From: Faecalibacter macacae
Lineage (GTDB): Bacteria > Bacteroidota > Bacteroidia > Flavobacteriales > Weeksellaceae
NCBI RefSeq assembly: GCF_003687725.1
Contig: NZ_RDOJ01000005.1
Span: 1-64,000 of the forward strand
DNA: 64,000 nucleotides
Direction of reading: 5' to 3'
A program made the position numbers and the translations under genes. A model generated the notes under the pieces. That model saw nothing but the letters and a program-made list of their open reading frames with translations, did not search any database and had not been told where the DNA came from. This document shows positions 425 through 5,920 of this stretch, piece by piece. The first letter of the stretch is position 1; every line of letters starts with the position of its first letter.

Positions 425-607
425 CATTTTAATCACTCCTTTAGATTTGAAATTCTTAAATTGATACAAAAAGAGAATGTGTTTAAGTACACTATTATCA
501 CTCAAAGTTAAAAACTTATAGTTCGATTCAGACTTAAACACATCTTATCAAAAATTCAAATAGAAATTCGGGCTAACGACCCATTATAAAGGAGTTGAAT
601 TAATGAT
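425..607 (+). ncRNA. Candidate IS110 bridge RNA (left-end structured RNA)
   Basis: The non-coding left end folds into nested helices. The outer helix pairs ACTCCTTTA (435-443) with TAAAGGAGT (587-595), extended imperfectly outwards to about 425/605. A middle helix pairs GATTTGAAATT (444-454) with the AAATTCAAAT region (552-561). The inner helix is a perfect 12-bp inverted repeat, 477-488 with 532-543, enclosing a 43-nt loop that itself holds an AAGTT/AACTT hairpin (505-517). IS110 elements are known to express a bridge RNA from this position that guides the recombinase to donor and target DNA. That this region is transcribed is inference. Loop bases 522-528 (TTCGATT) are complementary to 1620-1626 in the right flank, which could be a target guide or chance. 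Confidence 0.6.
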
Positions 608-639
608 AATATTCTCTTGTAAATCCTAATAACGAATTT

Positions 640-1618
640 ATGAATAATACTTTTATTGGTATCGACATTAGTAAAGAAACTTTAGATTTTTATGTAAAAA
701 ATTCTGAATCTGAATCACATTATCAAATTGATAATGAAGTTAAATCGATTAAAAAATTCTTCAAAAAATTTAATAACAGTTCTGAAATTATTGTTGCCAT
801 GGAGAATACAGGACGTTATAATTTTTTGTTATACGAAGTTTTGAGTACTCTTGAATTATCCGTTTTTGTAATTAATTCACTCCATCTGAAAAGAAGTATT
901 GGTTTAACTAGAGGCAAGAATGATAAAATTGATAGCCAGAGAATATGCTTATATATTGAGAAGAATTATATGGATCTTCAAAAATGGAAACCTAGTTCAA
1001 CTATTATCTCAAAAATAAGTTATCTAAATACCGAGAGAAGATTTAGAATAAAAATAAAATCATCTTTACAAAAACAATTGAAAGATATCAAACATCTTAA
1101 AAATTGCCTTGATAAAGAAGTACTTGAATTAAATAAGAAGCTGATTAAAAACTTAGACAATCATATCAAAAAAAATTGAAGATAAAATAGTTAAACTAAT
1201 AAATTCTGATCAGAATTTAAATGATCAATATAAACGTATTCAGACTATTCCTGGAGTAGGAAAGGTATTGGCTACTTTAATGATAATTAAAACAAATGGT
1301 TTTACTGAAATTCTATCTGCACGAAAAATGGCTTGTTTTGCTGGTATAGCTCCTTTTGAACATCGCTCTGGAAGTTCCATTTACTATAGAGCTCGAGTTT
1401 CAACAATGGCTGATAAAGAACTTAAAAAGACCTTACATTTAGCTGCTTTAAGCACTATTAGATTAGAGAATGATTTAGCTATTTACTATCATCGAAAAGT
1501 AGAAGAAGGAAAAAATAAAATGTCAGTTTTAAATGCAGTAAGGAATAAATTTATACACAGAATTTATGCTTTAATAAAAAACGAAACTGTGTATAATTTT
1601 AATTTGGAAATGTCATAG
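640..1618 (+). pseudogene. IS110-family transposase, frameshifted at an A8 run
   Basis: DEDD-type recombinase that would cut and join DNA with the help of a bridge RNA. The first part (640-1179) has the RuvC-like domain with acidic residues D9 (GIDISKE), E55 (AMENTGRY), D95 and D98 (GKNDKIDS). The second part (frame +2, open to 1618) has the Transposase_20 domain: IPGVGKVLA, then MACFAGIAPFEHRSGSS with the serine region typical of IS110. The two frames join cleanly at the A8 run near 1166-1174: with one A fewer, translation continues IKKIEDKIVK without a gap, giving about 325 residues, the normal family size. So it is a recent one-base lesion, slippage-dependent expression, or a sequence error. 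No other damage is visible. Confidence 0.85.
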
Positions 1619-1679
1619 AAATCGAAATGACTAATAGGTTATGATTCTTCAGTTCGCTGTTGCTTTGTTTAGAATGACA
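1619..1679 (-). repeat. REP-like repeats (right of IS110)
   Basis: Read on the minus strand, 1642-1679 gives GTCATTCT..GAAGAATC, the inverse partner of the copy at 321-348. Bases 1622-1631 (TCGAAATGAC on the plus strand) form the end of a second unit that seems to have been split by the insertion sequence. Identification is by motif similarity. Confidence 0.45.
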
Positions 1680-2274: not shown

Positions 2275-3411
2275 TTATTTATAAACAAAAGCAATATGTG
2301 CTGGTATATTACCTGCAGTAGTCTTCCATTTTAAAGTTCCTTCTTTAGCAAAACAATAGATAAATCCATCAGATACATAATTTGTAGCATCTGTTATATA
2401 AATATCACCATTAAATTTATTAACAGCAATTCCGTAAGGAGTTTCAACTTCATTTATAATAGGATTATTGATTAATTGATTACTAACTTGCTGTTCAGTT
2501 TTTGTGTTGATTATTCCATAACTTTTTACATATTCAAAAGTTTCATAACTAAATTCGTTTGAATAGTAGTACAAATAATCACCTACAATTGTAAAGTTTG
2601 AAACAGGAATATTAAATGTTTTTTTAATTTGATGAGTTTTCGAATCAATTACATATAAATTAGAAGCTACGTCATAATAATTTCCTCGAGTCGTTACATA
2701 CAAATCACCCTCTTCGTCTTTTTTAATACGATGTAAGTTTACCTCAACATCAATTTTCTCTGTTTCAGTAAATGTATTTAAATCAACTACAGAAACCGTG
2801 CGGTCGTATTCTGGATAACGATAACCGCCTGAATTGGCTACGTATAAATTATTGCCAACAATTTCTAATTCATCAGGTTGATACCCAACTGTAGTTTCTC
2901 TTGAAATATTGAAATTAATTGTATCAAATTCAATTACTTTACCTAATGGAGAGTTAGGGTCAGTTGCTATTGGTCCTGCATAAGAAGTTGCATATCCTTT
3001 TCCATCTTTAAAAGTAAGATATCGTCCATTTTCTAAAGGAATTGTTGCAATATGACGTGCTGTTTTAACATCCATAACTTCAATAAAATTTGAAGCATTA
3101 ATTACAGAATATAATTTACTACCATAAATTTTAATATCATTACCTACGTCACCTAAAGAACGAACAATATCAGGATTAGCTGTACTGTAAATATTACGAC
3201 TAAATACTCCTGATGTTAAATCCATAAAATCAATTGAAGCTTTATTTGATCCCATATTACCTTCATTCAACAAATAAAAACCTGTAATTTCTGTAGGCTC
3301 TGGATTACCAATTGTTTCCTGATCATTACCTATAATACGATCATCATCGTTACAGCTAAATATAGCTAAGGGTAGTGTAAGTAATAAACTTAGTTTGATA
3401 AATTTTCTCAT
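2275..3411 (-). CDS. BtuG-like beta-propeller surface lipoprotein (DUF5074/YncE type)
   Basis: 378-residue lipoprotein. A signal peptide ends at Cys20 (LAIFSC) and is followed at once by NDDD, an acidic stretch like the surface-export signal of Bacteroidota lipoproteins, so it is probably displayed on the outside of the outer membrane. The rest is repeated beta-propeller blades (for example GNNLYVANSGG near 188 and GDIYITDATNY near 340). In Bacteroides, BtuG is such a seven-bladed YncE-like lipoprotein that caps BtuB and captures cobalamin very tightly. Here the start codon overlaps the stop of the TonB-dependent receptor by 4 bp and both lie downstream of a cobalamin riboswitch, which strongly supports the same role. 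Family and context are seen; ligand is inferred. Confidence 0.8.
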   Translation of the reverse strand: MRKFIKLSLLLTLPLAIFSCNDDDRIIGNDQETIGNPEPTEITGFYLLNEGNMGSNKASIDFMDLTSGVFSRNIYSTANPDIVRSLGDVGNDIKIYGSKLYSVINASNFIEVMDVKTARHIATIPLENGRYLTFKDGKGYATSYAGPIATDPNSPLGKVIEFDTINFNISRETTVGYQPDELEIVGNNLYVANSGGYRYPEYDRTVSVVDLNTFTETEKIDVEVNLHRIKKDEEGDLYVTTRGNYYDVASNLYVIDSKTHQIKKTFNIPVSNFTIVGDYLYYYSNEFSYETFEYVKSYGIINTKTEQQVSNQLINNPIINEVETPYGIAVNKFNGDIYITDATNYVSDGFIYCFAKEGTLKWKTTAGNIPAHIAFVYK

Positions 3412-5411
3412 AAATATGTACTTATTATTATTTTAAACTGTCGGCCTGGCATTGGATAATTCAAGACGATATCATAATATTTATTCATAATATTATTGAC
3501 TTCAAATGATCCATTAAATCGAATTTTCTTTAATTCAAAAGATTTTTGAATCGAAAAATCATGTGTGAACCAAGGTTTTATATAATTGTATTTGTTATTA
3601 TTTTGATTGGCATCGTATCGTTCTCCTACATAAAGAAAACTATAATTTAACCCCCAAGTTTTATATGTAGAATTCAAGATAAATGATCCACTATGTACAG
3701 GAACATAAGGAATTTGATCTTTATAATAGCTTCTGCTTTGCGAGGTGTAATCTTGCGCTTTTTGATAAGTATAATTTAAGGTAGATTTAAAATCAAAGTC
3801 ACTTAAATTTAGATGTCCTTGTATTTTTACATCTGCTCCTTTAATTTGTACTTTACCTAAATTCATCATCATCCAACGAAACATACTACCATTAGGTGCA
3901 GCGATAATTTTGTCTTCAACTTCATTATAATACATATCAATTTTTGCGTTTAGATAATGTAGTTTACCTAAGTTTCTCCAGGTGTAATCTAAACCTATGT
4001 TATATTGATTTGTATATTCTGGTTTTAAGTTTGAATAACCAATATTAGTATAATACAAATCATTGAAAGTTGGCATCCTAAATACACGTTTATAAAAAGC
4101 ATTGATATAAAAATCTCTTGTAGTGAAAGGCTGAAAACTTCCAATCAAAGTAGGTGTCCAAACTGATTTATCAGGTGCACTTGTATTCATTTCAACTTGC
4201 TCACGTACAAAAGAACCTAATAAACTACCCTGAATTTTTAATCGTTGAAGTTGGTATGTACTTGCTATAGCTAATAATTGGGTGTATCGTTGGGGATAGG
4301 AAAAGTTTTTTAAAGTTGCATCTAGTTTATTATATTGAAAATCGAAAGCTATATTCATATCCCAATTGGAACGTATTTTAAAGTAATTCGCTGATGAAAA
4401 ATAGAATTCTTGCTGAGTGTATTTATTTTGAGTTTTAATGGATGAAACTGTATCAACAAAATGAGTAAAATCGTGTGCATATTTTAAGTTGATACGAGAT
4501 TCAAATTTTCCCCATTTCTTTTGTACACTTCCTTGGGTAAAATAATTCTTATCGGTTAAAGTTTGTCCTTTTGCTCCAAATCCATTACGAATAATAGCTG
4601 CAGGAATTCCACGATCAGATAAATAACTATATCCTTTTATATTCCAACTTAAAGTATTATGATTTCCATAAATACCAAGTTCAAATCGTCTTGCTTCAAT
4701 TTGCCCATCCTTACGAATTGCAGTAGTATCATTAGCAATACTATTATCTGCGTTACGTTTGATTACTCTAAATTTATACTCCCCATTACTCTTAAGATAT
4801 TCTGAACTTAAAGAAGTTGAAATTTGATCATTAATTTTATATTCAAAACGAGCAGATGGATTTATCAATTGGATTGAACCTGTTTTGTATCGTAATGTTA
4901 AATTATATTTTTTATTATTCTTGAATTGTGGTTTCTTCGATTGTAAATAAATTGATGAAGCAGAAGCATAATCTTTTGCAGACTGAAAAATATTACTTTT
5001 TTGGCCATTGTAAAGTGATATACTTACTAAATCATCTAAAGAGTATTTACCTAAATCAACAACACCATTTTGTGCATTTCCCAACTGTATACCATCATAA
5101 TAAACGCCTACGTGCTGACTTCCCATACTACGTACATCAACAGTTTTTAATCCACCAACACCACCATAATCTTTCAGTTGAATTCCCGAAAAATAGCGTA
5201 AAGCGTCTGCTACTGAATGGCTATTAAGTCGCGTTAAGATATCTCCATCTAATGTTTGTGGAGCGATTAAATCTATTGGTTTTTTGTTATTTAAATTTAC
5301 TTGTTGCAAATCATAAACAGAATCCTTACGCTCTTGTCCTAAAACAAAAGTTCCATGTCCTATCATCAAAAGGCAACAAAAGTAAAGCTGATAAAAATTT
5401 CTCATTAGCAT
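3408..5411 (-). CDS. btuB: BtuB-like TonB-dependent outer membrane receptor
   Basis: 667-residue outer membrane transporter. A signal peptide (to about residue 26, ending VLGQ) precedes a plug domain (about 45-150, with VDVRSMGSQHVGVYYDG) and a 22-strand-type barrel ending in an aromatic-rich strand, FKIIISTYL. It lacks the long carboxypeptidase-like N-domain of SusC proteins, and its short form fits vitamin and siderophore receptors. The cobalamin riboswitch directly upstream names the likely substrate as cobalamin or a related corrinoid. The start is either M1 or M3 (5405); both give the same signal peptide. Uptake would need TonB-ExbBD, not in the window. Confidence 0.88.
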   Translation of the reverse strand: MLMRNFYQLYFCCLLMIGHGTFVLGQERKDSVYDLQQVNLNNKKPIDLIAPQTLDGDILTRLNSHSVADALRYFSGIQLKDYGGVGGLKTVDVRSMGSQHVGVYYDGIQLGNAQNGVVDLGKYSLDDLVSISLYNGQKSNIFQSAKDYASASSIYLQSKKPQFKNNKKYNLTLRYKTGSIQLINPSARFEYKINDQISTSLSSEYLKSNGEYKFRVIKRNADNSIANDTTAIRKDGQIEARRFELGIYGNHNTLSWNIKGYSYLSDRGIPAAIIRNGFGAKGQTLTDKNYFTQGSVQKKWGKFESRINLKYAHDFTHFVDTVSSIKTQNKYTQQEFYFSSANYFKIRSNWDMNIAFDFQYNKLDATLKNFSYPQRYTQLLAIASTYQLQRLKIQGSLLGSFVREQVEMNTSAPDKSVWTPTLIGSFQPFTTRDFYINAFYKRVFRMPTFNDLYYTNIGYSNLKPEYTNQYNIGLDYTWRNLGKLHYLNAKIDMYYNEVEDKIIAAPNGSMFRWMMMNLGKVQIKGADVKIQGHLNLSDFDFKSTLNYTYQKAQDYTSQSRSYYKDQIPYVPVHSGSFILNSTYKTWGLNYSFLYVGERYDANQNNNKYNYIKPWFTHDFSIQKSFELKKIRFNGSFEVNNIMNKYYDIVLNYPMPGRQFKIIISTYL

Positions 5412-5530
5412 ATTACATTTGTTGCTAACGAGAGTTTAAAGAAGTATATTTAATCAACACCTAAAAAAGAGGTATTCACTAAAACTAATATTCTTCGCTT
5501 TATATCCCGAAAGCAAATAAATTTATATAC

Positions 5531-5695
5531 TCTTGGTAGGTCTTCTGACTTACTCCATTCTAAAAACCTTCCCATTCATTATTGAACAGTGGTATTTATT
5601 TTAGAACTTGTACGGAGATTACAGCAGCGGGTCTGTTCAGGATTTACACCTGATTCCCTGTTACCGAAATGTTACTTTCGCACCAATAGTTAAGC
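5531..5695 (-). promoter_or_regulatory. Cobalamin (AdoCbl-type) riboswitch
   Basis: On the minus strand the leader shows the standard order of conserved elements: GGTGCGAAAG.., GGTAACAGGGAATCAGGTGT, AATCCTGAACAGACCCGCTG, CTGTAA, then a B12-box-like ACCACTG and finally AGTCAGAAGACCTACC closing P1. It lies about 120 bp before the BtuB-like start, so high cobalamin should shut down synthesis of the uptake pair. No separate strong terminator is evident between it and the gene, which would fit translational control. Confidence 0.95.
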
Positions 5696-5920
5696 AAATA
5701 TAATAATTTTTATGAATAATCAACTTTTTCCTTTAACTGACTAGTTGAGAGTTTTTATGCCTATTTAAATTATCATTTCGAAATAAATTTGTAATGTATT
5801 TAATATGATATGCATCTAAGTTTTCTTTTCTTTAATAAAACTCAACTACCAATGAAATTATCCAATATTAAAAATAGATTAAAAATTAAACTCTACTTAA
5901 ACACTAATTTCAAAAAATAT

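Follow-up and report, generated by a model that had tools for sequence, protein, structure and literature searches.

The question raised by this locus is whether the left end of an IS110 element, in which the initial annotation saw three nested inverted repeats within 425..607, encodes a bridge RNA that specifies both donor and target. Bridge RNAs were described in 2024 (texts of PMC11208160, PMC11208158 and PMC11187229), and one is to be expected here because the text of PMC11208160 gives a predicted bridge RNA for 85.7% of IS110-group elements. From sequence comparison we consider it very probable that the left end encodes a bridge RNA of ~165 nt guiding donor as well as target choice, which would be produced and used as in IS621, and we assign it to the known IS110 kind because its loops match the element's own ends and its own landing site.

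Borders of the element and its insertion site

The window, by which we mean the whole 64,000-nucleotide stretch of DNA analysed, starts with the end of an rRNA operon (5S rRNA at 92-199), followed by the IS110 element. At the same place in the same genome other rRNA operon ends are uninterrupted, as in C4 (...CATTTTAAACACTCGAAATGAC) and C7 (...CATTTTATACATTCGAAATGAC), and the occupied site in the window reads ...CATTTTAATCACTC|CTTTAGATTTG ... GTCATAGAAA|TCGAAATGAC. Comparison with these two uninterrupted paralogous sites sets the TC core at 437-438 and 1622-1623 and the size of the element at 1185 bp including one core, and reveals no target duplication beyond the 2-bp core.

430..436, + strand: left target (LT) TAATCAC, 6/7 bases as in the left target guide at 495-501
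437..438, + strand: left core dinucleotide TC, from the empty sites C4 and C7, with the same TC at 1622-1623
439..1621, + strand: IS110 element body, from the empty sites (left end, LE, 439-639; recombinase region 640-1618; right end, RE, 1619-1621)
640..1179, + strand: recombinase, N-terminal part (PF01548, DEDD), an ORF with profile match
1178..1618, + strand: recombinase, C-terminal part in another frame (PF02371), an ORF with profile match
1622..1623, + strand: right core dinucleotide TC, then the right target GAAATGAC, from the empty sites and guide match
1624..1629, + strand: right target (RT) GAAATG, pairing with the right target guide at 519-524 at 5/6 positions, one a wobble

The LE spans 201 bp and the RE closes at 1621, 3 bp past the stop codon at 1616-1618. 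A long LE, a short RE and no duplication beyond a 2-bp core characterize the IS110 group, as do the DEDD RuvC-like (PF01548) and Tnp (PF02371) domains of its recombinase, which were matched here at 69.3 and 68.4 bits by two pieces lying in different frames. The initial annotation was right in seeing an AT-rich Bacteroidota member of the IS110 family with a long left end and hardly any right end. Because the recombinase is split between two frames, a point absent from the initial annotation, the window copy is probably not autonomous and would probably need recombinase made by another copy.

Identity to the recombinases of unbroken relatives reaches 62%; most close full-length relatives have 324-331 codons unbroken, and some others are truncated (e.g. 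L035, L038, L040, L061). A profile of ten unbroken relatives matches the structurally solved recombinases of IS621 (E 3.4e-28) and ISCro4 (E 3.4e-30). No relative was confirmed when contigs were searched with the window's N-terminal recombinase piece; with the alignment of the ten unbroken relatives 156 of 181 stretches were confirmed and the best 80 kept, and a DNA search of plasmids returned a single 97-bp match, in Flammeovirga. The resulting table of relatives holds 62 records, entry requiring an LE pattern match at 195-256 bases. Dropped from it were duplicate ids of the same place or record (L029, L047, L049, L061, L081, L087, L088, L090 and L159) and, by hand, L015, L018 and L036 (a single partial copy on C12 of a second element, under three ids), L060, L069, L148 and L155. 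The termini CTTTAG...CATAGAAA are common to most listed relatives, and the same element also lies on a contig of a same-genus genome, G010.

The right half of the target, TCGA[AG][AG]TGAC, occurs at 25 places in the element's own genome versus 5 for a reversed control pattern, suggesting that the target belongs to a repeated sequence. Within the window, target-like sites (pattern ATCACTCGAA, up to 2 mismatches) numbered 74 versus 70.6 expected, which is no excess. A run of GCATAAC repeats at ~1784-1856 adjoins the element and was seen by eye in other contigs of the genome too.

Fold and conservation of the predicted RNA

The predicted RNA and its parts are as follows, all on the + strand.

454..622, +: predicted bridge RNA, from the fold and a covariance model (R1) match; ends approximate, the 5' end from promoter geometry
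471..478, +: closing stem P1, 5' arm (472-476 paired in the fold, complementarity extending over 471-478; 8-bp duplex, swap test)
477..488, +: target-binding loop stem, 5' arm ATGTGTTTAAGT (fold, swap test, covariation)
495..503, +: left target guide (LTG) TTATCAC plus core TC (match to LT, swap tests)
505..517, +: small hairpin within the target-binding loop (fold; the corresponding 3-bp helix pairs 100% across 33 elements)
519..526, +: right target guide (RTG) TAGTTC plus core GA (pairing with RT, swap tests)
532..543, +: target-binding loop stem, 3' arm ACTTAAACACAT (fold, swap test, covariation)
545..559, +: donor-binding loop stem, 5' side, 545-550 and 555-559 (fold, swap test, covariation)
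560..568, +: left donor guide (LDG) ATAGAAA plus core TT, same as donor 1615-1621 ATAGAAA
570..582, +: hairpin GGG..CCC within the donor-binding loop (fold, helix 6 of the covariation analysis)
587..593, +: right donor guide (RDG) TAAAG plus GA, complementing the element start 437-443 TCCTTTA
595..609, +: donor-binding loop stem, 3' side, 595-599 and 604-609 (fold, swap test, covariation)
611..618, +: closing stem P1, 3' arm (613-617 in the fold; swap test)

Folding of 410-640, which had been suggested beforehand and which includes DNA outside the element, gave -40.3 kcal/mol (z -3.35, 0/200 shuffles as good), and 456-622 alone gave -31.3 kcal/mol (z -3.09, again 0/200). The latter fold is three-way, comprising the closing stem P1, the target-binding loop and the donor-binding loop, with the donor stems formed by 545-550/604-609 and 555-559/595-599. 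P1 closes both loops in this fold, its bases 477-478 competing with the target-loop stem, and no separate 5' stem-loop appeared in the folds of 410-640 or 456-622, the 5' end being itself predicted. The RNA of a related element, L052, folds alike though less clearly (z -1.84, 9/200 shuffles as good).

The 12-bp helix 477-488/532-543 around a 43-nt loop consists of perfect complements, just as had been claimed. For a proposed outer helix the complementarity of 435-443 (ACTCCTTTA) and 587-595 (TAAAGGAGT) holds; its reading as a stem within the RNA does not, because 435-438 lie outside the element or in the core so that the helix crosses the insertion junction, and it corresponds to the RDG set against donor DNA. 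The third of the nested repeats had been given without coordinates and is probably the donor-loop stem 545-550/604-609 plus 555-559/595-599. Added here is P1, which lies partly outside 425..607.

Absence of covariation among homologous elements had been set beforehand as an argument against a bridge RNA, and covariation was found: across 33 distinct elements 28 of the 35 base pairs of the named structure changed on both sides, 90.2% of cells pair, and the covariation score was 0.430 versus 0.194 when shuffled (0/500 shuffles) and at most 0.162 when slid. RNAalifold predicted 20 pairs from the same 33 elements, 16 of them changed on both sides, with P1 and the donor stems absent from the prediction. 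P1 and the outer donor stem are poorly resolved in the MAFFT alignment (A2), so an alignment-free test was added in which arms were exchanged between elements; own versus swapped arms gave -15.1 versus -7.1 kcal/mol for the target stem, -10.7 versus -7.6 for the donor stem and -9.9 versus -6.8 for P1, each with 0/20,000 permutations; such counts, here and below, take no account of how the elements are related and should not be read as exact probabilities. In L106, L108 and L110 P1 is weak or missing. The LE is thus predicted to hold an RNA with two internal loops conserved by covariation, as expected of a bridge RNA.

The covariance model R1 matched the window at 465-622 with 140.5 bits, the window being in its training set. 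At E<=0.01 it found 35 of 43 non-training loci (a chosen set rather than all), each having a match just upstream of the recombinase, and missed 8 of the 43; at E<=1e-4 it found the RNA in 10 of 395 genomes sampled from the phylum, the element's own included. Rfam scans gave no bridge RNA family, either at the gathering threshold across the window or at E<=10 within 380-1700. Upstream of the recombinase of L034 and L055 a partial left end is directly followed by a full one, as if an element had inserted into, or recombined with, the bridge RNA gene of another copy.

Target and donor guides

The window LTG (TTATCAC-TC) and LT (TAATCAC-TC) share 6/7 non-core bases, and the RTG (TAGTTC-GA) has a single mismatch in its pairing with TC-GAAATG. 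The element's own insertion site scores 10.5/13 against these guides, a value reached by none of the 7,078 TC sites in the window on both strands; the uninterrupted sites C4 and C7 score 9.5 and 7.5.

Among the relatives, own guides fitted own targets better than swapped ones. The LTG-LT pairing averaged 5.16 versus 3.10 of 7 pairs (58 left insertion records, 35 LTGs) and the RTG-RT pairing 4.96 versus 3.43 of 6 pairs (54 right records, 26 RTGs), with 0/20,000 permutations in both cases, the guide registers having been set beforehand by visual inspection of the window and a few relatives. L102 and L104, identical to records L080 and L058, and flanks running off the contig were dropped; L118 is the record L063, so that the 58 left records represent 57 places with the 35 guides unaffected, and L097 and L098 share a right flank and may not be independent. 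The effect resides at shift 0, nearly disappearing once the register is displaced by 1-5 bases, and is confined to the predicted strand, swapped guides outperforming own ones on the other. Jointly, own guides scored 10.38 versus 6.99 of 13 (31 guide pairs, 52 insertions); the own pair was best or joint best for 15 of 31 targets, that of the window ranking third of 31. At the anchored register the left fit is poor in the G112 copies (L057, L067, L075-L078) and in L091 and L106, and weaker in L054, L066, L072 and L093; the right fit is poor in L097-L100.

Elements of the same genus illustrate the point. Those of G010 and G011 carry an RTG ...TTCT-GA and sit before TC-AGAATG, and the G008 copies L032, L038 and L040 carry ...AGCT-GA and sit before TC-AGCTTGAC; judged by these sequences, target guide and insertion site differ together within the genus. 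Guides complementary to the element's own target and covarying with it, as expected of a bridge RNA, were therefore found on both sides.

Complementarity extends to the donor. The LDG (ATAGAAA-TT) equals the LD (ATAGAAA-TC), with a U.G at the second core base, and both LDG and RDG are complementary to the element's own joined ends, the complementarity of the RDG being read off the sequence. Donor ends of 17 more distant elements take the forms ATAGAAA, ATAACAA, ATGGAAA, ATAGATA and ATAGCAA, a range limited by the right-end motif itself. A matching LDG was present at 9/9 in 16 of these 17, at offset 100-105 of the RNA match, and at 8/9 in L143, the best match being sought in the 3' part of the RNA without a swapped control; the 17 derive from 22 rows with the right-end motif, L068, L121, L131, L148 and L155 being left out.

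A candidate promoter across the joined ends

Joining of the element ends would bring together two further candidate features.

442..449, + strand: TAGATTTG, candidate -7 box (consensus from the text of PMC6847099) of a promoter complete only in circular form
1603..1606, + strand: TTTG, candidate -33 box with conserved TTG, 20 bp from 442-449 in the circle

In Bacteroidota the promoter consensus is TTTG at -33 and TANNTTTG at -7 (texts of PMC6847099, PMC7366714 and PMC2483708), and the candidate promoter here is likely of this type. The TTG of the candidate -33 box is the fourth-last codon of the recombinase and is kept in 32 of 33 elements; all 32 Leu codons at this place are TTG, versus 18% elsewhere in the genes. 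Of 15 distant elements in which it is non-coding, 14 retain it with unchanged spacing; these come from a set of 22 rows with the right-end motif (15 non-coding) and 31 loci without it, duplicates and loci with an early stop being skipped. The strict TANNTTTG is present in 20 of the 33 elements and lacking in 13, and the window -7 box has a G at a position that, according to the text of PMC6847099, is almost never G in Flavobacterium johnsoniae. The conserved TTG may act as the -33 box of a promoter that is assembled only on circularization, with an imperfect -7 box. We regard it as rather unlikely, at perhaps a chance in a few, that the TTG reflects a recombinase contact or a coding constraint and no promoter box. 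Its place in a Leu codon in 32/33 elements would suit that reading, as would the imperfect -7 box and the weakness of the -33 box in F. johnsoniae, where G at -10 is almost absent (text of PMC6847099); the exclusive use of TTG among Leu codons, the spacing kept where the sequence is non-coding and the 20 bp between TTTG and TAGATTTG in the circle speak against it, each being compatible with a protein contact nonetheless.

Alternative explanations and proposed mechanism

Structures that end ~20 nt before a start codon, as this one does, are in the usual place of leader structures, and the helices might be thought to act only in DNA or in an mRNA leader that regulates recombinase translation or binds the recombinase, with no guide function. 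We consider this highly improbable, since from one element to the next the loop sequences change with the target and donor DNA, in the strand and register predicted, which is unexpected of a leader. The bridge-RNA reading is instead supported by covariation, helix swaps and the pairing of guides with target and donor. A different matter is whether the RNA of the window copy is a relic, that is, a true bridge RNA by lineage in a copy left immobile by its split recombinase, to which we give about an even chance; this is compatible with the best explanation for the lineage. The ORFs 640-1179 and 1178-1618 lie in different frames, and the unbroken length of most close full-length relatives (324-331 codons) points the same way. 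On the other hand the window RNA retains its helices and its score of 140.5 bits, its guides continue to fit donor and target, and a second related IS110 with predicted bridge RNAs is found elsewhere in the genome, cross-use between the two being only conceivable.

On the bridge-RNA reading, and by analogy with IS621, the element would excise as a circle, and the junction of its ends would create the promoter from which the RNA is transcribed. Through target-loop guides complementary to both flanks of the insertion site and donor-loop guides complementary to the joined ends, recombinase and RNA would bring donor and target together, with strands exchanged at the core.

Relation to known bridge RNA systems

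IS621 from E. coli, as described in the texts of PMC11208160 and PMC11208158, shares with the window element the DEDD/Ser recombinase family, an RNA in the long left end, a target loop followed by a donor loop, inclusion of the core in each pairing, bottom-strand pairing by the left guides (5' side of a loop) and top-strand pairing by the right guides (3' side), insertion into repeated sequences, and a promoter across the joined ends (here a candidate). It differs in its core, described in these texts as CT versus TC in the window element, and in its RNA, that of the window having no separate 5' stem-loop in the fold (its 5' end being predicted) and a closing stem round both loops; the candidate promoter of the window element is of Bacteroidota type, and its recombinase is only distantly related to that of IS621. 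The ISCro4 recombinase (PDB 9t56), of the same family, is the best solved relative by sequence, compared by recombinase alone. In ISEc21 (IS110) and ISEc11 (IS1111) an RNA from the non-coding region, the seekRNA, likewise selects the target (text of PMC11187229); the 74-nt RNA named there for ISEc21 is shorter than the RNA predicted here, and the hosts differ.

The string 'Bacteroid' is absent from the main texts of PMC11208160 and PMC11187229, whose data sets and supplements may well hold such elements. We found no paper on a bridge RNA in Bacteroidota IS110 elements, and none on IS110 in Empedobacter, in a search covering published papers, few of them from subscription journals. The kind of RNA is already known; the closing stem, the TC core and the promoter type were not met in the published bridge RNA text covered. 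What is supplied here are sequence-tested bridge RNAs for an AT-rich Bacteroidota group, with promoters and composition unlike those of E. coli, together with natural guide-target pairs (58 left and 54 right insertion records), among them those of related elements within a single genus, where a different guide goes with a different insertion site, and a covariance model that finds such RNAs in more distant relatives. Natural reprogramming between related seekRNA elements is reported in the text of PMC11187229.

A second IS110 element and tandem modules

A second related IS110 is present in the same genome on C4, C5, C12, C13, C17, C21, C23 and C46 as several incomplete copies at contig ends or gaps, its recombinase being ~52% identical where present. 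The two left ends of this element on C12, at 712-873 and 421-570 on the minus strand, differ in right target guide (TATGCTGA versus TATTCTGA). In related IS110 elements of four genomes, two bridge-RNA modules were seen in tandem before one recombinase.

L134: tandem modules at 1990-2152 and 2273-2441
L136: tandem modules at 1990-2150 and 2272-2440
L166: tandem modules at 1980-2151 and 2275-2444
L207: tandem modules at 1491-1654 and 1253-1423, minus strand

Recombinases of the tandem-module elements are 72-92% identical to that of L136. In L134, L136 and L166 copy 2 matches the own left target at 9/9, 8/9 and 9/9 versus at best 7, 6 and 6 for copy 1; on the right, the guides give no clear distinction between the copies. 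The donor guide ATGGAAAT, corresponding to the end of the element itself, is retained in both, and copy 1 is 85-89% conserved among these three. The relative L185 has a single module, L205 gave one weak match, and L206, L208 and L209 gave none.

We tentatively raise, as one joint claim that we judge somewhat more doubtful than an even bet, that these RNAs represent a distinct Bacteroidota architecture with a closing-stem three-way junction, no 5' stem-loop and a circle-only promoter whose -33 box is written into the last codons of the recombinase, together with a tandem two-target sub-lineage in which L134, L136, L166 and L207 would each combine one recombinase with two target programmes. Tandem double bridge RNAs, if confirmed, would be an arrangement that we did not find described; the phrase 'two bridge RNAs' was found once in our literature search, in the text of PMC11208160.

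Elsewhere in the window a cobalamin riboswitch was detected at 5518-5702 on the minus strand (109.8 bits), upstream of a minus-strand ORF at 3408-5411 that by eye resembles a TonB-dependent receptor.
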